Assembly (NCBI GenBank): GCA_938048165.1
Contig: CALIBP010000120.1
Span: 1-36,916, forward strand
Direction of reading: 5' to 3'
DNA: 36,916 nucleotides
Source of the DNA: an uncultured Alphaproteobacteria bacterium
GTDB lineage: Bacteria; Pseudomonadota; Alphaproteobacteria; MPNO01; UBA2964
Below are positions 22,745-36,916 of this stretch, one piece after another; the stretch's first letter is position 1, and every line of letters begins with the position of its first letter. The notes under the pieces were generated by a model that saw only the letters and a list, made by a program, of their open reading frames with translations, was not told the DNA's origin and did no database searches. A program made the position numbers and the translations under genes.

Positions 22745-24457
22745 GTGGCTGACTTTGGCGGCAAGCAACTGGATTACATCATCATCGGCGGCGGTTCGGC
22801 GGGCAGTGTGCTTGCGAGCCGGTTGACCGAGCGATCCACCAACAATGTTCTGTTGCTGGAAGCCGGGCAGGATTTCCCGCCTGGCAGCGAACCGGCAGAT
22901 CTTAATAATAATTTTGTCGCAACAGCCAAGGGCGCTCCGCTCTATACATGGCCTGGTCTGAGCGCCCGTTTTTTGCCTCGTTCCAGCAATGCGCCTGATG
23001 AACGTCCGGAACGACGCTATAATCAGGGCCGCGTGATTGGTGGCGGTTCGTCGGTTAATGGCATGTGCGCCAATCGCGGTCTGCCCAGTGACTTTGACGG
23101 CTGGGAGGAACTGGGAGCTAAAGGTTGGAATTGGGAAGGTGTCCTGCCTTTTTTCAAAAAGCTTGAAAGTGATCGTGATTTTGACGGCCCGCTTCACGGG
23201 GATGAGGGACCGATTGGGCTCCGACGGTTGTTTGAAGATCAATGGCCGGGCTTTACGGCCGCCTCGATAAAGGCTGCCGAAAAAGATGGCTGGAAAAACC
23301 TGAAAGACCAAAACGGTGTTTTCGAGGATGGTTACTTTCCTATCCCGATGAACAATATCGATGGCAAGCGGATATCTGCCTCGACAGCGTATCTGACAAA
23401 TGAAGTCCGGGCGCGTGCCAATTTTGACATGCTGGATCGAGCCCATGTTAAGCGTTTGCTGTTTGACGGTAAGAAAGTCATCGGGGCACGGGTCATTCGT
23501 CGTGGTGAAATTTTCGATGTGAAGGCAAAGGAAGTCATTGTTTGTACCGGAGCTCTGCATACGCCGCCGCTTTTGATGCGCTCCGGGATTGGGCCGGAGG
23601 CGGAACTCTCGGAGCTTGGCATCGATGTCGTTGCTGACCGGCCAGGCGTTGGTAAGCATCTGATGGAGCATCCTGGCGTTAATTTTGGCGCTTATCTCAA
23701 GAAAGAGGCGCGGCTCACACCAGGTCTGCCGACACATATGATTGCGGCGGTGCGCTGGTCGTCTGGTCTTGAAGGCGTGCCTGCGGGCGATATGTATATT
23801 GTTCCCACCAACCGTGCCGCCTGGCATCCCATCGGGGATCGCATGGGGATCATGCAGCTCTGGGTGAATAAGTCCTATTCAACTGGAGAGGTGACATTGA
23901 AGGCTGATGATATTTTTGGCGAACCCAATGTCGATTTCAACATGTGTTCCGACCGTCGGGATATGGATCGCATGATTGCAGGTGTCCGCGTGATGGCGAA
24001 GCTTTGCGCAAGGCCAGAAATTCAGGATGCGGTGCTTGATGTGTTCCCGGTCAGCTATGGAACGCGGGCGCGCAAAGTAGGCGTCTATAGTACTTTCAAC
24101 CGCGTGCAGACCTGGATTGGCGCGCAAATGATGGATGCTTCTTCCTTTGCTCGCCGCTGGATTATAGAGAACATGATTTCCACCGGCCCTTCGATTGCCG
24201 ATTTGCTCGAAGATGAGTCCACGATTGAGCAATGGATCCGCAAGACGGTTCTCGGCCATTGGCATGCCTCCTGCACCTGCCGCATGGGGGCAGAAGATGA
24301 TCCGGGTGCCGTGACAGATCCCGCAGGCCGGGTTTATGGCGTTGAGGGGCTGCGCATATGCGATGCCTCGATCATGCCAATGGTGCCCTGTGCCAATACC
24401 AATATATCCACCATTATGATTGGTGAAAAAATATCGGCAACGATCCTTGCGGAATAA
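22745..24457 (+). CDS. GMC family oxidoreductase (choline-dehydrogenase-like), copy 1
   Basis: 570 residues from GTG 22745 (MADFGGKQLDYIIIGGGSAG), with GGGAGG at 22732-22737 seven bases upstream. FAD-binding marks are GGGSAGSVLASRL at 14-26 and LLLEAG near 37; the GMC signatures GRVIGGGSSVNGM and GALHTPPLLMRSGIGP are both present. The C-terminal active site reads HWHASCTCRMG, followed by PMVPCANTN with the second active-site residue as Asn. GMC enzymes oxidise alcohols to aldehydes using FAD and pass electrons to quinones or oxygen. It has no signal peptide. Its equal-length near-copy lies at 29073-30785. It converges on the molybdopterin oxidase gene with three bases between the stops. Substrate unknown. 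Confidence 0.92.
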   Translation: MADFGGKQLDYIIIGGGSAGSVLASRLTERSTNNVLLLEAGQDFPPGSEPADLNNNFVATAKGAPLYTWPGLSARFLPRSSNAPDERPERRYNQGRVIGGGSSVNGMCANRGLPSDFDGWEELGAKGWNWEGVLPFFKKLESDRDFDGPLHGDEGPIGLRRLFEDQWPGFTAASIKAAEKDGWKNLKDQNGVFEDGYFPIPMNNIDGKRISASTAYLTNEVRARANFDMLDRAHVKRLLFDGKKVIGARVIRRGEIFDVKAKEVIVCTGALHTPPLLMRSGIGPEAELSELGIDVVADRPGVGKHLMEHPGVNFGAYLKKEARLTPGLPTHMIAAVRWSSGLEGVPAGDMYIVPTNRAAWHPIGDRMGIMQLWVNKSYSTGEVTLKADDIFGEPNVDFNMCSDRRDMDRMIAGVRVMAKLCARPEIQDAVLDVFPVSYGTRARKVGVYSTFNRVQTWIGAQMMDASSFARRWIIENMISTGPSIADLLEDESTIEQWIRKTVLGHWHASCTCRMGAEDDPGAVTDPAGRVYGVEGLRICDASIMPMVPCANTNISTIMIGEKISATILAE

Positions 24458-29072: not shown

Positions 29073-30785
29073 ATGTCTGATTCTGCGGTGCTGAAATACG
29101 ACTATGTGATCGTCGGTGGCGGTTCTGCGGGGTGCGTTCTCGCGGCCCGCCTCAGTGAACGCTCGTCGAATAACGTATTGTTGCTGGAAGCGGGGGAAGA
29201 CCACCCGCCGGGTGATGTTCCGCCCGAACTGCTCGATAGTTTCGCGGGCACGGCGCACAGCAATCCACGCTTTACCTGGTCTGGCTTTACCGCGGCCTTT
29301 CAGCCTAAGCCCAGCAATGCGCCTGATGAGCGCAATCGTCCGCGCTATACGGCGGGTCGGGTGATGGGTGGTGGATCATCGATCAACGGCATGTGCGCCA
29401 ATCGAGGTCTGCCATCGGATTACGATGAGTGGGAAGAAAAGGGTGCTAAGGGTTGGGGCTGGGATGGTGTCCTGCCTTATTTCAAGAAGCTTGAGAGTGA
29501 TCGTGACTTTGACGGACCGATGCACAGTGCTGAGGGGCCGATCGGGATCAGGCGGTTATTCCCGGATCGCTGGCCGGGCTATACCAGCGCGGTCATGCAG
29601 GCCGTTAAGGAAAGCGGCTGGGAAAATATCGAGGACCAGAATGGCGTGTTCTCGGATGGGTATTTCCCGCTATCGATCAACAACATTGATGACCAGCGGG
29701 TATCGGCGGCGACGGCCTATTTGACCCGCGAAGTTCGGGCGCGGGCAAATTTCTCGATCATCGATCAGGCGATGGTTCAGCATCTGTTATTTGAGGGCCG
29801 TCAGGTCGTCGGTGCCCGGGTACGTCGCCCTGATGGTGAGATGGATGTTCGAGCCAAGGAAGTCATCGTCTGCGCAGGTGCGTTACAGTCGCCGACGATG
29901 CTACTGCGTTCTGGTATTGGGCCAGCGGATGAACTCACGGCGTTGGGAATCGATGTCGTTGCCGACCGCGCCGGTGTTGGTAAACATCTGATGGAGCATC
30001 CCGGCGTTAATTTTGGTTCCTATATGAAGCCGGGATCACGCCTCACCCCTGGTCTTAGACGACAAATGCTCGCCGGGCTGAGATGGTCTTCAGGGCTTGA
30101 GGGCATCCCAGCGGGGGATATGTATCTGGTGCCCACCAATAAAGCTGCCTGGCATGACATCGGCTCACGGCTCGGCTTGGTAATGATCTGGGTGAACCGA
30201 TCTTATTCGACCGGCGAGGTCAAACTTAAGTCACCCAACCCCGCCATTCGCCCCGATGTTGATTTTGATATGTGTTCCGATCCGCGTGACCTCGAACGGT
30301 TGGTGATGGGGACGCGTATGGCTGTAAAGTTGCATCAGCATGAATTGATCCGGGAAGCGGTACATGAAATCTTTCCCATCAGCTACAGCCCGCTGGCCCG
30401 CAAGATCGCTGTCTATAGCCCGTGGAACAAGTTTCAGACCTGGCTTGGTGCACAGGTAATGGATGCGCTACCACCAGCCCGAAAATGGATCATCAAGAAC
30501 ATGATTGCCGATGGCCCGTCGATTGATGAGCTCCTTGCGGACCAGGTAGTTATGGAGCAGTGGATTAGATCAACGGTGCTCGGTCACTGGCATGCATCCT
30601 GCACTTGCCGAATGGGTGCAGAAAACGACCCTGGGGCGGTGACAGATCCGTCGGGACGAGTCTATGGCGTAGGCGGATTGCGGGTTTGCGACGCGTCAAT
30701 CATGCCAATGGTGCCGTGCGCCAATACCAACCTGCCGACGATAATGGTTGGCGAGAAAATTGCGGCGACAATCCTTTCCGAATAA
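29073..30785 (+). CDS. GMC family oxidoreductase, copy 2 (paralogue of 22745-24457)
   Basis: 570 residues from ATG 29073 (MSDSAVLKYDYVIVGGGSAG). It has the same FAD and GMC signatures as copy 1 (GGGSAGCVLAARL, GRVMGGGSSINGM, GALQSPTMLLRSGIGP) and the same unusual HWHASCTCRMG active-site block followed by PMVPCANTN. By eye about two thirds of positions are identical and the length is exactly equal, so the two arose by duplication and divergence. Long blocks agree with almost no change, for example NGMCANRGLPSD and FKKLESDRDFDGP. Differences cluster near residues 45-75 and 430-480, which could alter substrate choice. It probably forms an operon with the GFA gene upstream. A short palindrome and a promoter-like pair follow its stop. 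Confidence 0.92.
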   Translation: MSDSAVLKYDYVIVGGGSAGCVLAARLSERSSNNVLLLEAGEDHPPGDVPPELLDSFAGTAHSNPRFTWSGFTAAFQPKPSNAPDERNRPRYTAGRVMGGGSSINGMCANRGLPSDYDEWEEKGAKGWGWDGVLPYFKKLESDRDFDGPMHSAEGPIGIRRLFPDRWPGYTSAVMQAVKESGWENIEDQNGVFSDGYFPLSINNIDDQRVSAATAYLTREVRARANFSIIDQAMVQHLLFEGRQVVGARVRRPDGEMDVRAKEVIVCAGALQSPTMLLRSGIGPADELTALGIDVVADRAGVGKHLMEHPGVNFGSYMKPGSRLTPGLRRQMLAGLRWSSGLEGIPAGDMYLVPTNKAAWHDIGSRLGLVMIWVNRSYSTGEVKLKSPNPAIRPDVDFDMCSDPRDLERLVMGTRMAVKLHQHELIREAVHEIFPISYSPLARKIAVYSPWNKFQTWLGAQVMDALPPARKWIIKNMIADGPSIDELLADQVVMEQWIRSTVLGHWHASCTCRMGAENDPGAVTDPSGRVYGVGGLRVCDASIMPMVPCANTNLPTIMVGEKIAATILSE

Positions 30786-31371: not shown

Positions 31372-31414
31372 CCAATTTTCCTGAAAGCAGACTGGCGAGG
31401 TGAGGGGAGTCCCA

Positions 31415-31688
31415 ATGCCGGACGGCTCGAAGGAGACACGGCCTTTATCGGTACAAGACAAGAAGTCCTTGCTTCTTGCGCATACATTTATTGAATCCCT
31501 GGATGACGAAGATGTCGACCGGCTGGCGCATCATGCGCGTCTGATGACCTTCAGTACCGGCGAGACAATTTTTCAGTACCGGCGAGACAATTTTTCGCAA
31601 AGGCGATCCCGGTGTCAGCATGCTGGTGGTGATCAAAGGCTGTGTCCGGATCAGTACGATCACATCCGCTGACCGAGACGCTATTTAG
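31415..31688 (+). pseudogene. Crp/Fnr-type regulator remnant, frameshifted by a 22-bp tandem duplication
   Basis: ATG 31415 with GGGGAG at 31403-31408 opens a frame reading MPDGSKETRPLSVQDKKSLL and then FIESLDDEDVDRLAHHARLMTFSTGETIF, the start of a cyclic-nucleotide-binding domain. A tandem duplication of 22 bases (31551-31572 and 31573-31594) then shifts the frame and a TGA at 31670-31672 ends it. Removing one copy restores FRKGDPGVSMLVVIKGCVRI, the typical Crp/Fnr continuation, but even then a TAG at 31686-31688 stops after about 84 residues. No helix-turn-helix domain follows. The gene therefore carries at least two defects and is non-functional as a full regulator. Sequence up to about 31800 may hold further decayed remains. 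Confidence 0.8.
31550..31596 (+). repeat. 22-bp direct tandem repeat, two copies
   Basis: The unit TCAGTACCGGCGAGACAATT plus TT occurs at 31551-31572 and again at 31573-31594; period-22 identity extends from 31550 to 31596. The unit is not a multiple of three, so it breaks the host reading frame. Confidence 0.95.
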
Positions 31689-31906: not shown

Positions 31907-33118
31907 ATGCCCAGCTCTGCAACCGGCGCTGCCGTTCTAATCGTCCTCGGGATTTTAACGGCCTTTGGCCCCATGTCGATGGACATGTATTTGCCAGCCT
32001 TACCAGAGTTGGTGGATTTCTTTCGGACCACCCCAGGCAAGGCTCAATTGACGCTTAGTGCCTTTACGATCGCTTTTGGTGCCGGACAGCTGGTTTATGG
32101 ACCGGTCTCTGATCGAATAGGCCGTCGCAACGTTTTGCTGGTGGGTATCGCGATCTACTCGGTCGCGAGCATTCTCTGTGTATTAGCCGACACAATTAAC
32201 GAGTTGATCCTGGCGCGTTTCTTTCAGGCCATTGGGGGTGCTGCAGGGATTGTTTTGTCACGGGCCGTTATTCGTGACCTGTACGATAAGCTCGAAGGCG
32301 CTCGGGCCTTGTCGCTTATGCTCCTGATCCCATCACTTGCGGCTTTGATTGCACCTTTCGTCGGCGGCTATCTGTTAAAATTCTTTGCCGATTGGCGCCT
32401 GATTTTCTGGGTGCTGTCGGCGTTCGGTATTATTGCTTTCATCCTCGGTGTTCTCAGGCTGCCTGAAACTCACCCGCCTGAGAAACGGGTGAAATCGAGC
32501 GTCAGCAAAATCATGCGCGATTATTGGATCGTCCTCTGCCATAGGCGCGCCGCGGGTTATATGATCTGTGGCGGACTGTCTTTTGCGACGATGTTCGCAC
32601 AGCTATCCGGCACCCCATTTATCTACATTGATCTCTTTGGTGTCGCGCCGGAAGATTTTGGCATTCTGTTCGCGCTGAACATCTTTGCCATCATGATCGG
32701 CTCCTACCTCAATAGCCGTCTGGTCATCCGGTTTGGCGTACGCCGTATGCTTGCGGTCGGGACGACGCTAGCGTTGCTCGGTGGCATAGGGCTTGCGGCC
32801 AGCGCGGCCTATGGCGGTTTTGGTCTCTTCGGAATCGTCATCCCGGTAGTCATCTTTATGATGCCCCATAATATGGTGAATGCGAACGCCACCGCAGGGG
32901 CGATGGAATATTTCCCACACCTCGCCGGGACGGCATCGGCGATGCTTGGTTTTGTCAGGTTTGGGACCGGTGCCCTGGTGGGAGCCTTGGTCGGGTATTT
33001 TCACGATGGCACCGCTTTGCCAATGTCTTATATCATTGCCGGCTGTGTGATCGGCAGCGCCGCGGCCTTCTGGTTTCTCACCGGTGATCCCTCCGAGGAA
33101 CCCGCTAAACCGGTTTGA
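31907..33118 (+). CDS. Bcr/CflA family MFS multidrug efflux transporter
   Basis: 403 residues starting MPSSATGAAVLIVLGILTAF. The first helix region has the Bcr/CflA mark GPMSMDMYLPALPELVDFF, the loop after helix 2 is GPVSDRIGRRNVLL (MFS motif A, complete), and FFQAIGGAAGIVLSRAVIRDLYD follows the family pattern. Twelve hydrophobic helices fit the length. Members export antibiotics such as bicyclomycin, sulfonamides or cysteine-pathway metabolites from the cytoplasm by proton antiport. The ribosome site is weak (GTGAG before the ATG). The stop lies 14 bases inside the end of the convergent DUF35 gene, so the two 3' ends overlap. It is the third MFS exporter in the window. Confidence 0.92.
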   Translation: MPSSATGAAVLIVLGILTAFGPMSMDMYLPALPELVDFFRTTPGKAQLTLSAFTIAFGAGQLVYGPVSDRIGRRNVLLVGIAIYSVASILCVLADTINELILARFFQAIGGAAGIVLSRAVIRDLYDKLEGARALSLMLLIPSLAALIAPFVGGYLLKFFADWRLIFWVLSAFGIIAFILGVLRLPETHPPEKRVKSSVSKIMRDYWIVLCHRRAAGYMICGGLSFATMFAQLSGTPFIYIDLFGVAPEDFGILFALNIFAIMIGSYLNSRLVIRFGVRRMLAVGTTLALLGGIGLAASAAYGGFGLFGIVIPVVIFMMPHNMVNANATAGAMEYFPHLAGTASAMLGFVRFGTGALVGALVGYFHDGTALPMSYIIAGCVIGSAAAFWFLTGDPSEEPAKPV

Positions 33119-33515
33119 ATTTCGGCAAGGAAAGGTCGCTGGTCGCGTCTTCGAAGATCACCTCCACCGGCATGTCACATTTGACCTCGTCAACAGGGAC
33201 CCCAATGACATTACTGAGCATCCGTGCGCCTTCCTCCAATTCGATAACCGCGACGGCATAGGGTATCGCGCCGTCCCAGCCTTTGTGATAAAGCCTGTGA
33301 AAGACGACAAAACTAAATACGGTGCCTTTGCCGGAAGACGCAACCCATTCAATATTGCGACTGCCACAGCCTGTGCAAACGGTAGACGGCGGAAACCAGT
33401 GATGCTCGCAGTCTGAACATTTTTGGATCATTAGCTGATGGTTCTTTGCGCCCTCCCAAAACGGAAGAGACTCCGGTCCCGGGACGGGTATGGCTTTTGC
33501 GTAATCATCAGACAT
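33105..33515 (-). CDS. DUF35 zinc-ribbon OB-fold protein (acyl-CoA-associated)
   Basis: 136 residues starting MSDDYAKAIPVPGPESLPFW. A rubredoxin-like zinc ribbon uses C33, C36, C47 and C50 (CSDC, CTGC). The OB-fold part follows with GKGTVFSFVVFHRLYHKGWDGAIPYAVAVIELEEGARMLSN, typical of the family. DUF35 proteins bind acyl-CoA and form complexes with thiolase-like partners; in steroid side-chain degradation a DUF35 partner is essential for the Ltp2 retro-aldolase. Its ATG shares one base with the stop of the thiolase-like gene (TGATG), so it is translated by coupling. Its end overlaps the convergent transporter gene by 14 bases. Family call is firm. Confidence 0.93.
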   Translation of the reverse strand: MSDDYAKAIPVPGPESLPFWEGAKNHQLMIQKCSDCEHHWFPPSTVCTGCGSRNIEWVASSGKGTVFSFVVFHRLYHKGWDGAIPYAVAVIELEEGARMLSNVIGVPVDEVKCDMPVEVIFEDATSDLSLPKFKPV

Positions 33516-34696
33516 CAGGCCGCTCCCAGAATAAGAGTAGATTCACAGACCGTGTTGCCCCCGTGACCGGAAACCAATCCGATCTCGGCTTTTGGCACCT
33601 GACGTTCGGGGCCGTAGATGCCTTGCAGTTGCCGAACACCCTCTACGACCTGGAGCATACCTTCAACATGGGCTTCCGATAGCTGGCCGCCAGAGGTGTT
33701 GGTCGGCATTGCGCCATCGAGCGCCAGCGCGCCCGACGCGACAAATTCACCCCCTTCGCCTTTTTTACAGAAACCGTAATCCTCAAGCTGAACCAGGACC
33801 ATGTAGGTAAAGCAGTCATAGATTTGCGCGTAATCGATATCTTCCGGACCAACACCGGCCATTGCATAGGCTGTTTTGCCAGACTGGATCGCGCCGGTAT
33901 GGGTCATGTTGTTGCCGTTGAACCAGCCGCTGATATTATTGCCGGTACCAAAGCCTTTGATCAGCACCGGTTTTTGACGCAAATCTTTTGCCCGTTCAGC
34001 AGAGGTCACAACAACCGCTCCAGCAGCATCGGTTTGTAGTGAACAATCAAACAGGCTGAACGGTTCAACAATCATCCGCCCGCCGAGATAATCCCCCATG
34101 GTCAGCGGCTTCTTCATTACCGCGTCGGGATTGTTCAGCGCGTGGTTCCGAAAGGCGACAGAAATCGCGCCAAACTGTTCGCGCGTCGTGCCATAATCAT
34201 GCATATGGCGCTGTGCGCCGAATCCATGCGCGGCGATCGCGCCGTAATAACCAAACTCAGGCCCGAACTCCATGCCATACATTTGCTGTGGACGGCCGGA
34301 ACCCCGCATATGATTTTCCTTGTTGGCATGGACGCGCGACCAGTTATCCCGGCCATAGCCAACCAGAACACAGCTTGCCATGCCGGCATCGATGGCCATG
34401 GCGGCGAGTGCCACCCCCATCACCTGGCTGGCGCCGCCATTGGTCAGGGTTGTGGAGAAGCTCGCGTCGATGCCGAGCCGTTCCCCCATTACCTGGTGAA
34501 ACGTGTAGATCTCATCCGGTCCGCGGCAGATCAGGCCATCAACGTCCTGTGTCGTGAGCCCGGCATCATCGAGCGCATTGAGCATTGCTTCTTCGAGTAA
34601 CCCCTGCGCCGAAACGCCGGGGACTTTGCCCAACCGACTATGACCCGCACCAACGAGGGCATATTTATCCCGTAAATGGGTAGATGGTTCGATCAT
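33515..34696 (-). CDS. Thiolase-like protein (Ltp2/SCP2-thiolase type, no nucleophile Cys)
   Basis: 393 residues starting MIEPSTHLRDKYALVGAGHS. The thiolase fold is clear (LLEEAMLNALDDAGLTTQDVDG near 34-55, and a C-terminal SGHGGNTVCESTLILG). The position of the thiolase nucleophile cysteine reads TLTNGGASQVMG, so Cys is replaced by Gly and Claisen chemistry is unlikely. YDCFTYMVLVQLEDYGFCKKGEGGEFV matches Ltp2-type aldolases, in which tyrosines serve in retro-aldol cleavage of a beta-hydroxyacyl-CoA. Together with the coupled DUF35 gene this suggests an aldolase complex. Its ATG overlaps the end of the CaiB-type gene by four bases. The function is inferred by family; SCP2-like lipid-transfer naming is an alternative. 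Confidence 0.88.
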   Translation of the reverse strand: MIEPSTHLRDKYALVGAGHSRLGKVPGVSAQGLLEEAMLNALDDAGLTTQDVDGLICRGPDEIYTFHQVMGERLGIDASFSTTLTNGGASQVMGVALAAMAIDAGMASCVLVGYGRDNWSRVHANKENHMRGSGRPQQMYGMEFGPEFGYYGAIAAHGFGAQRHMHDYGTTREQFGAISVAFRNHALNNPDAVMKKPLTMGDYLGGRMIVEPFSLFDCSLQTDAAGAVVVTSAERAKDLRQKPVLIKGFGTGNNISGWFNGNNMTHTGAIQSGKTAYAMAGVGPEDIDYAQIYDCFTYMVLVQLEDYGFCKKGEGGEFVASGALALDGAMPTNTSGGQLSEAHVEGMLQVVEGVRQLQGIYGPERQVPKAEIGLVSGHGGNTVCESTLILGAA

Positions 34697-35844
34697 TCTG
34701 CCGCCCCTGCTTTTTTCGCTATCCTCTGTAAGATTTCCTCGGTGTGCTCACCATGTAATGGGGCAGCCGTTCGAATTTCGGGTGGTGTGTCTGACATGCG
34801 AACACCGCTTTCGACCAGCTTGACTGACCCGACCTTGGGATGCGGGACGTCGCGCACCATTCCGAGGTGCTGTACCTGTGGATCGGCCAGTGTTTCATCG
34901 AGCGTATAGATCGGCGCCGATGGGACATCTTCTTCCAATAGTCTGTTGAGCCAATGTTCGCGTGGTTTGGTTTTAAAGACATCGCCTAACAGAATTTCAA
35001 GCTCGTCGTAATTATGGCGCCGCTCCGCCTTGCCAACGAACCGGTCGTCATCAAACCACTCTTCGTGGCCTACGACCTTGCAGAGTCCCTTCCAGAATTT
35101 TGGTGGAGAAGACAGGTGGATGACGAACGGTTTTCCGTCGCTGGCGACAAAGGAATAGACCTGCGCTGTTTGGGTTCGGGTTTTCCGGCCCGGGACTTTA
35201 CCTTCTTCAAAATAGCGGGCGGCATTCTCTCCCAGGAAGGATAGGGTCGCAGTGAGAAGGGAGGTCTCGACGCGCTGACCTTTGCCGGTTCTTTCGCGAG
35301 CTGCGAGCGCTCCCAAACAACCATAGGCCGCCATCATGCCGGTCAGATGATCGGAAAGAGAAATGCCCATACCCTTGGGGGCTTCCAGATCTGTCAGAAC
35401 CGAGAGCAGACCCCCCATCGCCTGGCCAACCGTGTCATAGCCGGGCCGTTTGGCGTAAGGCCCGGTGCCGCCAAACCCGGTGACCGAGCAATAGACGAGC
35501 CGTGAATTGAGGGCCGATAATTTGTCATAGCCGAGACCCAGCCGATCCATCGTGCCAGGACGGAAGTTTTCGATCAGCACGTCGGCCTCTGCTGCTAACG
35601 CTACCGCGGCAGCCACGCCCTCTTCGGACTTCAAATCAAGAATAATGCTCTTTTTATTACGATTTACTGAGCCAAAGGTCGCAGAATAGTCTGCTGCCCC
35701 CCAGCCGCGAAATGGATCACCGGATTTAGGATCTTCCACCTTGATAATCTCGGCACCGAGATCGCCCAGCATCATGCCGGCATAGGGCCCGGATACATAA
35801 GAGGCGAATTCCAGAACGGTTATGCCTTCCAGAGCTGTTGTCAT
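34693..35844 (-). CDS. CaiB/BaiF family III CoA-transferase
   Basis: 383 residues starting MTTALEGITVLEFASYVSGP, with GGGAG seven bases before the ATG. Family III marks are GPYAGMMLGDLGAEIIKVEDP, NRNKKSIILDLKSEEG, IENFRPGTMDRLGLGYDKL and a catalytic aspartate D165 in SLSDHLTG; the C-terminal part is a normal length. These enzymes move CoA between carboxylic acids through an acyl-aspartyl intermediate in the cytoplasm. It is the first gene of a three-gene operon with overlaps of four and one base, so it probably activates an acid that the thiolase-like/DUF35 pair then cleaves. It diverges from the edge-cut amidohydrolase over 203 bases. Confidence 0.93.
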   Translation of the reverse strand: MTTALEGITVLEFASYVSGPYAGMMLGDLGAEIIKVEDPKSGDPFRGWGAADYSATFGSVNRNKKSIILDLKSEEGVAAAVALAAEADVLIENFRPGTMDRLGLGYDKLSALNSRLVYCSVTGFGGTGPYAKRPGYDTVGQAMGGLLSVLTDLEAPKGMGISLSDHLTGMMAAYGCLGALAARERTGKGQRVETSLLTATLSFLGENAARYFEEGKVPGRKTRTQTAQVYSFVASDGKPFVIHLSSPPKFWKGLCKVVGHEEWFDDDRFVGKAERRHNYDELEILLGDVFKTKPREHWLNRLLEEDVPSAPIYTLDETLADPQVQHLGMVRDVPHPKVGSVKLVESGVRMSDTPPEIRTAAPLHGEHTEEILQRIAKKAGAAE

Positions 35845-36047: not shown

Positions 36048-36916
36048 ATGGGATCGATTGATTCAGACGCGCATGTCATCGAATGCGAAGCGACCTTTAA
36101 CTATATGGATCCGGAATTTGAGCACCTGAAGCCAATGGTGGTAGTGCAAAAATCCGGAACGGCGGAACTTGACCTTGAAGGCCGGGCGCAGACCGAATAC
36201 TGGATCATTGATGGCAAGCTGCAGCCCAAGGAAGGCAATATCGGTTCCAACACATCGAAGGAATCGCGCGAAATGCTTGATGTGCAGGCGCGGCTCGATC
36301 ACATGGATGAGCTGGAAATCGATGTGCAGGTTCTCTACCCGACGGTTTTCCTGCGGGCCTGGACCCAGAACCCGGAGTTGGAACTAGCTCTGTGCCGATC
36401 CTATAACCGCTGGCTTGCTGATATCTGGTCAAAGGCGCCGGATCGCTTGCGCTGGGTGGTTATGCCACCTTTGCTGCAGATGGATAAGGTGCGCGAAGAA
36501 CTCGAATTCGCTAAAGCGAATGGTGCCTGTGGCATTTTTATGCGCGGGCTTGAATGTGAACGCCGCGTCGCGACGCCTTATTTCTACCCGCTGTTTGATA
36601 TGGCGGCGGAACTGGACATGCCGATCTGTTTCCATTCCGGTAATAACAGCTTTGCGGTGCGCGATATCTACGCCAAGGAATGCGGCTTTGGCCGCTCCAA
36701 ACTGCCGGTGGTGTCAGCCTTCCATAATTTGTTGATGGATGGCATCCCCGAAAAATGGCCAACCGTCCGCTGGGGATTTGTTGAGGTGAGTGCGCAGTGG
36801 ATTCCCTATGCCCTCAACGACATGGACATTCGTTTTGGCCGACGTGGACGTGAGCTGTCTGACACCATCATGGCAGACAACAATATCTATGTGGCCTGTC
36901 AGGTAACCGACGACCT
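36048..36916 (+). CDS. Amidohydrolase-2 family protein (3' end outside window)
   Basis: At least 289 residues starting MGSIDSDAHVIECEATFNYM, with GGAGG at 36038-36042 five bases before the ATG. The N-terminal SDAHVIE matches the D-x-H-metal start of the large uncharacterised branch of the ACMSD-like amidohydrolases. LDHMDELEIDVQVLYPTVFL and ICFHSGNNSF (a later metal-ligand histidine) fit the same TIM-barrel family. The closing aspartate motif lies beyond the window. It is the third amidohydrolase-2 gene in the region and is clearly different from the other two. It may hydrolyse or decarboxylate a pathway intermediate made by the divergent CoA-transferase operon, but this is only context. Confidence 0.85.
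   Translation, partial: MGSIDSDAHVIECEATFNYMDPEFEHLKPMVVVQKSGTAELDLEGRAQTEYWIIDGKLQPKEGNIGSNTSKESREMLDVQARLDHMDELEIDVQVLYPTVFLRAWTQNPELELALCRSYNRWLADIWSKAPDRLRWVVMPPLLQMDKVREELEFAKANGACGIFMRGLECERRVATPYFYPLFDMAAELDMPICFHSGNNSFAVRDIYAKECGFGRSKLPVVSAFHNLLMDGIPEKWPTVRWGFVEVSAQWIPYALNDMDIRFGRRGRELSDTIMADNNIYVACQVTDD

Follow-up and report, generated by a model that had tools for sequence, protein, structure and literature searches.

The DNA analysed here, called the window throughout, is a stretch of 36,916 nucleotides from an uncultured marine Alphaproteobacteria bacterium (UBA2964; assembly GCA_938048165.1, contig CALIBP010000120.1, positions 1-36,916, forward strand), and the genome bin that holds it is 68% complete. 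Toward its end, three adjoining genes on the minus strand (the trio) encode a CaiB-type coenzyme A (CoA)-transferase, a thiolase-like protein and a DUF35 protein. Close orthologues of the thiolase-like protein bear titles such as 'Alphaproteobacteria bacterium UBA2964'. Its residues are compared below with those of two aldolases that share its thiolase fold, Gly at the nucleophile place and a DUF35 partner, namely Ltp2-ChsH2 of Thermomonospora curvata (PDB 6OK1) and Sal-Shy, the bile-acid side-chain aldolase of Comamonas testosteroni (PDB 9MYR; PMC12329534, partial text). The three genes and their key codons were located as follows (aa, amino acids):

34693..35844, - strand: CaiB/BaiF-type (family III) CoA-transferase, 383 aa, from Pfam CoA_transf_3, SUGCT 9br6 and Asp165
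35350..35352, - strand: codon of CaiB Asp165, from alignment with SUGCT, within the clade signature (P/G)MGxSxSDH
33515..34696, - strand: thiolase-fold protein without nucleophile Cys, 393 aa, proposed retro-aldolase, from Pfam, residues, AlphaFold2 model and PDB matches
34433..34435, - strand: codon of Gly88, aligned with the thiolase nucleophile Cys and with Sal Gly89
34226..34228, - strand: codon of His157, aligned with Sal Tyr165; 19 of the 20 orthologues that can be scored have His
33812..33820, - strand: codons of Y293-D294-C295 in YDCF, matching Sal Tyr302/Cys304; unchanged in all 21 listed orthologues
33683..33685, - strand: codon of Gln338, matching Sal Gln347; present in all 21 listed orthologues and in none of the 59 listed distant homologues
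33668..33670, - strand: codon of His343, aligned with Ltp2 Tyr344, Sal Gln352 and the His of canonical thiolases; unchanged in all 21 listed orthologues
33105..33515, - strand: DUF35 (Zn ribbon + OB fold) partner, 136 aa, without MaoC domain, from Pfam and PDB relatives 9myr_B and 6ok1_B
33366..33419, - strand: zinc ribbon C-x2-C-x10-C-x2-C (C33, C36, C47, C50), the same in all 10 DUF35 proteins aligned

The first-pass annotation of this DNA had placed the trio at 33105-35844 with overlaps of four and one bases; these coordinates were exact, and the domains were recovered with Pfam. The CaiB/thiolase-like junction reads ATGA and the thiolase-like/DUF35 junction TGATG. The CaiB protein matched CoA_transf_3 (397 bits, residues 5-368), the thiolase-like protein Thiolase_C_1 (168 bits) and Thiolase_N (30 bits), and the DUF35 protein zf-ChsH2 (48 bits) and OB_ChsH2_C (72 bits) with no other domain, all over the cut-offs. 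None of the three proteins reached a listed NCBIfam cut-off. Among the named equivalogs tried for the CaiB protein (SUGCT, FRC, mesaconate and others) none was reached, the best being succinate-glutarate CoA-transferase with 260.7 of 750 bits. Its nearest solved relative was SUGCT 9br6 (E 9e-67); Asp165, which aligns with the SUGCT Asp, was kept in 18 of 18 CaiB proteins (window and 17 orthologue loci), and by analogy with characterised family III CoA-transferases we take it to be the catalytic Asp. Judged by the CoA_transf_3 match and Asp165, the protein belongs to the family III (CaiB/BaiF) CoA-transferases. The 3' end of the DUF35 gene shares 14 bases (window 33105-33118) with that of a convergent Bcr/CflA-type MFS gene, and the two ends also overlap at loci L025, L026 and L027.

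To describe the active site, the thiolase-like protein was aligned with TcLtp2 (6ok1), CtSal (9myr), 4u4e, the true thiolase 7yvy, 21 orthologues, 59 distant homologues and three paralogues from the same genome. Numbering was anchored at one motif residue each (Tyr302 in YDCY of Sal, Tyr294 in YDHF of Ltp2), after which all other published Sal and Ltp2 residues carried the right letter; Gly88, Tyr293, Cys295 and Gln338 corresponded to Sal Gly89, Tyr302, Cys304 and Gln347. The thiolase nucleophile column held Gly88, with Gly in all 20 orthologues covering the position and Cys in none of the 20 scorable ones. Tyr293, Asp294, Cys295, Phe296, Gln338 and His343 were invariant in all 21 listed orthologues although identity drops to 62%. 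In the 59 listed distant homologues, the nucleophile-position Gly and the motif Tyr were both found 59 times; position 295 was Cys in 56, Ser in 2 and Ala in 1, position 343 was His in 44, Tyr in 9 and Gly in 6, and position 338 was Leu in 52 and never Gln. Position 157, mostly His in the orthologues, was Tyr in 51 of these homologues and His in 2. The Sal oxyanion residue Gln161 corresponded to Ala153.

The catalytic block quoted in the first-pass annotation was present (Y293-D-C-F-T...LEDYGFCKKGEGG). Its statement that the nucleophile Cys is absent agreed with Gly88, but the epithet 'Cys-less' did not survive, as Cys295 occupies the second catalytic position in every listed orthologue. The Ltp2 catalytic tyrosines, named beforehand as the point at which the assignment could fail, gave a divided answer: the base Tyr294 is matched by Tyr293, whereas the acid Tyr344 is replaced by His343. 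With the His of YDHF (Ltp2 His296) also replaced by Cys295, 'Ltp2-like' was given up for a Sal-type Tyr/Cys dyad that has His in place of Sal Gln352, and Ltp2 identity was rejected on residues. By its residues the site is best described as Sal-like in its Tyr/Cys pair, with His343 and without a nucleophile Cys, a third combination that is neither that of Ltp2 nor that of Sal. In Sal, the Y302F and C304A/S/H variants had no activity or almost none (PMC12329534, partial text). Identity as a classical or SCP2 thiolase was rejected, with Gly88 replacing the nucleophilic Cys and Tyr293 the His of HDxF.

Two of the same-genome paralogues (L002 and L004, contigs C83 and C242) have YDDF rather than YDCF, with Gly at the nucleophile place, unlike Sal, Ltp2 and the window protein. 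Position 295 is Ser in 4u4e and Ala in the added relatives L038, L039 and L041. Going by Ser and Ala at this position, further active-site versions of the thiolase fold exist.

An AlphaFold2 model of the thiolase-like protein, built from 41 window and locus sequences, had a predicted local distance difference test score (pLDDT) of 91.4 and a predicted template modelling score (pTM) of 0.92. Its top solved matches were 4u4e (Z 54.1), Ltp2 6ok1 (Z 53.6) and Sal 9myr (Z 52.8). Since these three span just 1.3 Z, the fold cannot separate the Sal from the Ltp2 type. An archaeal thiolase/DUF35 complex, TbSLP and a Pyrococcus thiolase followed at Z of about 50, and canonical thiolases at about 37. The kinship with DUF35-partnered aldolases proposed in the first-pass annotation was thus borne out, the model being nearest to two such aldolases and one uncharacterised relative. 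That relative, the 'putative thiolase' 4U4E of Sphaerobacter thermophilus, is the nearest solved structure and has Gly at the nucleophile place and His at the 343 position, but it differs in YDSF for YDCF, in Gly for Gln338 and in lying on another branch of the tree. In structural alignment the identity was 36% to Ltp2 and 34% to Sal.

The DUF35 protein was best matched by the partners of Sal and Ltp2 (E 8e-25 and 4e-24). Its ribbon has four invariant Cys with the spacing of Ltp2's partner, unlike the Cys3His1 zinc finger carried by the partner of Sal (PMC12329534, partial text). It also stands alone, whereas Sal's is fused to MaoC, and it lacks the MaoC partner of the Ltp2 system. The gene partner differs from that of Sal as well, being a CaiB CoA-transferase here.

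A scan of a species-genome collection listed 80 loci, comprising at least 21 orthologues (62-97% identity) and, after a gap to 46%, 59 distant homologues. Twenty orthologues and the window protein formed one clade with support 100/100; the L062 fragment, cut by a contig edge, was left out of the tree. Among the matches listed, the clade was mostly alphaproteobacterial, with one actinomycete bin and one SAR202 genome. Some loci were duplicates (L042/L026, L043/L028 and L045/L010), and L048 and L059 belong to one genome. An orthologue at 84% identity or more was carried by 7 of 97 genomes (the window's own included), and the three genes had the same order in 7/7. By mechanical open reading frame calls, the 4-base CaiB/thiolase overlap was kept in 7/7 loci (window and six relatives) and a thiolase/DUF35 overlap of 1 or 4 bases in 6/7, L010 having a 1-base gap; kept across the window and six relatives, the overlaps are not chance. 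A CaiB orthologue (at least 78% identity) was present in all seven genomes. A CaiB orthologue was likewise missing (best 38%) from two congeners, each 96% complete or more, that do not have the thiolase-like gene; a third congener, G005 (71% complete, no thiolase orthologue match), was left out of this comparison.

The first-pass annotation had proposed a search for the trio elsewhere, and the unit proved to be conserved in relatives. A CaiB homologue (55-95% identity) lay in the same cluster at 17 of the 21 listed orthologue loci, directly upstream at 7, upstream with about 1.04-1.17 kb between at 9, and downstream of DUF35 at 1. Two of the four remaining loci, L047 and L062, are contig edges, and L057 and L058 are not. 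Genome-wide, a CaiB of at least 55% identity was found in 6 of 7 orthologue genomes checked. The DUF35 gene was directly downstream at 20/21 orthologue and 56/59 distant loci (76 of the 80 listed). When 385 genomes of the class were drawn evenly, with no selection by sequence pattern, three more orthologue genomes came up, with a contiguous trio in 3/3. The trio is a conserved unit. A same-strand CaiB within 1.5 kb upstream occurred at only 4 of the 59 listed distant loci (L091, L095, L100 and L120; 31-34% identity) and slightly beyond that distance at L064 (1570 bases) and L075 (1608 bases). A CaiB partner common to all DUF35-thiolases, including homologues of 46% identity or less, was rejected on this count. 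The trio was also present at L044, in a bin titled Flavobacteriales TMED123 (thiolase 92%, CaiB 90%, DUF35 83%), with much of the marine-alphaproteobacterial neighbourhood; this is probably a misbinned contig.

Neighbourhoods were compared, as a guide, by profile searches within 6 kb in any orientation at loci whose flanks reach 4 kb or more on each side (15 orthologue and 44 distant loci). CaiB was found at 14/15 orthologue versus 13/44 distant loci and a TctC-type carboxylate-binding protein at 11/15 versus 10/44 (p 0.001). The opposite held for acyl-CoA dehydrogenase (0/15 versus 18/44), SDR (0/15 versus 16/44), MaoC (0/15 versus 3/44), enoyl-CoA hydratase (1/15 versus 14/44) and AMP ligase (1/15 versus 11/44). 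The TctC-type gene was directly upstream of the thiolase-like gene in ten loci (L046-L055), the Beijerinckiaceae loci L048 and L052 among them, and single-query searches with orthologue-locus queries found it at 10/15 orthologue versus 2/44 distant loci. On seven orthologue-cluster proteins, Pfam TctC (cut-off 27 bits) was exceeded in two, scored 15.6-26.3 in four and was absent in one. They were labelled 'TctC-type' because a profile of the ten binding proteins matched Bug, TctC and terephthalate-binding structures; three binding proteins tried against NCBIfam received no name.

Other companions were counted over 27 orthologue loci (the window, L042, L043 and L010 left out). One family is represented in the window itself:

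36048..36914, + strand: divergent Amidohydro_2 protein, truncated by the window end, a possible pathway companion, from Pfam and its recurrence at orthologue loci

Homologues of this protein lay in the fetched flanks of 9/27 loci, including L061, the SAR202 locus, and L128. A muconate-cycloisomerase-like enolase-superfamily protein was found at 8/27 (three tested scored 178-209 bits against a cut-off of 335) and an ADP-forming acyl-CoA ligase-like protein at 6/27. HyuB-like proteins, a luciferase-like monooxygenase, Rieske proteins and a 4-sulfomuconolactone-hydrolase-like companion (211 bits, cut-off 500) each occurred at 3/27. In keeping with the non-steroid acid of the first-pass annotation, the neighbours of the trio were not steroid genes. 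A 43% homologue on a Variovorax plasmid lies in a row of two CoA transferases, thiolase, Zn-ribbon OB-fold protein, hypothetical protein and MaoC, followed by LysR on the opposite strand, a tripartite tricarboxylate binding protein (245 bits against Pfam TctC) and hydantoinases A and B; read from its gene names, this is a similar parts list with an added hydratase. In the window, two GMC oxidoreductases of 570 aa, 66% identical (22745-24457 and 29073-30785, + strand), flank an amidase and a molybdenum hydroxylase, and several marine relatives share parts of this block. A putative Crp-type regulator, labelled by eye (31400-31672, + strand), is a 90-aa fragment, its cluster relatives having 246 aa (L025) and 130 aa (L026); a frameshift or assembly error is possible.

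Taken together, these data lead us to favour, with a confidence little better than even, a three-gene activate-and-cleave module in which the CaiB-type protein would form a thioester and the thiolase-like/DUF35 pair would cleave it by a retro-aldol reaction, the substrate being a beta-hydroxylated small carboxylate. This keeps the first-pass 'activate-and-cleave module for a non-steroid acid' as a working hypothesis, with predicted retro-aldol chemistry and a presumed non-steroid substrate. In the first step, as the family and the catalytic Asp suggest, the CaiB-type protein would transfer CoA from an acyl-CoA donor to the acid without ATP. The thiolase-fold protein, in a predicted complex with the product of the adjacent DUF35 gene like those of Sal and Ltp2, would then bind the CoA thioester, judging from residues and fold. 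Tyr293 would act as the base on the beta-hydroxyl proton and the C-C bond would break by retro-aldol. Cys295 would act as the acid on the acyl-CoA enolate, with Gln338, His343 and perhaps His157 tuning it, and the products would be a shortened acyl-CoA and an aldehyde or ketone. By the example of Sal, the DUF35 protein would shape the cleft and stabilise its partner. Classical thiolase activity is unlikely because the nucleophile position is Gly.

The acid is probably taken up from outside. Neither a hydratase nor an acyl-CoA dehydrogenase is a recurrent neighbour of the trio, so the acid would probably be beta-hydroxylated on arrival or made so by neighbouring lactone- or amidohydrolase-type enzymes. 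Such a carboxylate would call for no beta-oxidation within the module. The trio can be compared with the toluene bbs module, in which the benzylsuccinate CoA-transferase BbsEF and the benzoylsuccinyl-CoA thiolase BbsAB are separated by beta-oxidation steps. Both systems combine CaiB-family activation with a thiolase/DUF35 pair in one pathway and both Bbs activities were among the PDB matches, but the BbsB and BbsA models gave only 100.5/750 and 40.2/250 bits, short of their cut-offs.

A bolder and, as a whole, improbable version is that the trio works as a lyase that needs no ATP and recycles its CoA, with a third version of the active site, Gly/Tyr-Cys/Gln/His together with a clade-specific His157, and TctC-type uptake of a non-steroid beta-hydroxy acid, in marine and freshwater bacteria including SAR202. 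As a further guess, the acyl-CoA freed by the aldolase would serve as the CaiB donor for the next acid, so that catalytic CoA would suffice. The substrate might perhaps come from ring-cleaved aromatics of the muconolactone type, an origin suggested by the cycloisomerase-like and 4-sulfomuconolactone-hydrolase-like companions at some loci. In the citrate lyase and citramalate lyase cycle, acyl exchange onto a thiol carrier is followed by aldol-type cleavage that regenerates the donor thioester. This is a possible functional analogy for a cycle that is hypothetical here, and we know of no proteins common to the two systems.

Several observations weigh against the activate-and-cleave module. No published assay was found for any member of the thiolase-like clade, and with Ala153 (Sal Gln161) and His343 (Sal Gln352) the site is identical to none with proven retro-aldol activity. 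Inactivation of Sal by Cys304 to His, Ala or Ser points to fine tuning of the site (PMC12329534, partial text). The queries of the neighbourhood contrast were drawn from orthologue clusters (TctC) or distant-homologue clusters (acyl-CoA dehydrogenase, SDR, AMP ligase and MaoC), so that starting from one group or the other favoured the contrast, and the loci are related by descent, which makes the counts a guide only. The Variovorax TctC query gave 5/15 versus 10/44 at E 1e-8 and 8/15 versus 10/44 at 1e-3; the strong TctC contrast was toned down, the link being weaker than at first look, which cost the module a little confidence and gave a steroid substrate a little more. GMC oxidoreductases occurred in 6/24 and molybdenum hydroxylases in 5/24 neighbourhoods (window counted), and in L128 genes for an SDR and an aldo/keto-reductase-like protein follow 4-5 kb downstream. 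L057 and L058 (2 of the 21 listed orthologue loci) have no nearby CaiB for which a contig edge could be the reason, and the L057 genome holds CaiBs of 42-43% at most; that CaiB is essential everywhere was rejected on account of this genome. At the SAR202 locus L061 the DUF35 gene (56%) sits on a separate contig.

The strongest rival, though unlikely, sees in the thiolase-fold protein not an aldolase but an enzyme that decarboxylates a beta-keto- or malonyl-type acyl-CoA or acts on it in retro-Claisen fashion; as the nucleophile is replaced by Gly, His343 and Cys295 would be left to stabilise the enolate after CO2 loss. His343 sits at the canonical thiolase His position, and HyuB-type proteins adjoin the trio in L060 and L061, where ketone carboxylation could feed a beta-keto acid; the best named relative of the L061 protein was the acetophenone carboxylase subunit ApcD (187 bits, cut-off 1500). 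HyuB homologues flank just 3 of the 27 loci, however, and the His of HDxF is replaced by Tyr293, the beta-hydroxyl base in Sal and Ltp2. TbSLP, also with YDCF, slowly decarboxylates malonyl-CoA (kcat 0.005 per s), but no such decarboxylation was seen with Sal (both PMC12329534, partial text).

Cleavage of a steroid- or sterol-derived acid side chain, as by Ltp2 and Sal, is quite improbable even though, among characterised enzymes, steroid aldolase complexes are nearest to the thiolase-like and the DUF35 protein alike. ChsH2 has a MaoC domain. So does Shy (PMC11321319, partial text), whereas the DUF35 protein here lacks one and 15/15 orthologue loci are without a MaoC gene. The recurrent neighbours were instead binding-protein, amidohydrolase and muconate-cycloisomerase-like genes. 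KshA_C gave just weak partial matches in 3 of 9 group genomes (20.5-23.7 bits, one slightly over the 23.3 cut-off), as a single marker with no clear positive control, 14 control genomes having given one match below the cut-off. More improbable still, a non-catalytic CoA-ester carrier or degenerate thiolase beside a CaiB working alone would fit the lost nucleophile and several below-cut-off NCBIfam matches named 'lipid-transfer protein', but not the invariance of Tyr293, Asp294, Cys295, Gln338, His343 and Gly88 in the orthologues.

The trio was not found as a CoA-transferase/thiolase/DUF35 operon in the full-text literature searched, a weak negative with most subscription journals outside coverage. 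To our knowledge, the DUF35-dependent thiolase-fold aldolases with a proven reaction met so far (Ltp2 and Sal) act on steroids. On its residues, the thiolase-like protein of the trio is a further variant among the DUF35-partnered thiolase-fold aldolases, and the analysis names a testable residue set for the switch of the thiolase fold from thiolysis to retro-aldol cleavage. If the activate-and-cleave module is real, the fold would, as part of a conserved unit that stands alone and brings its own CoA-activating enzyme, serve more generally as a C-C lyase in the breakdown of environmental carboxylates. Such a role would extend to SAR202, in which CaiB-type transferases have been proposed as an ATP-free entry for recalcitrant dissolved organic acids (PMC5395668, partial text).

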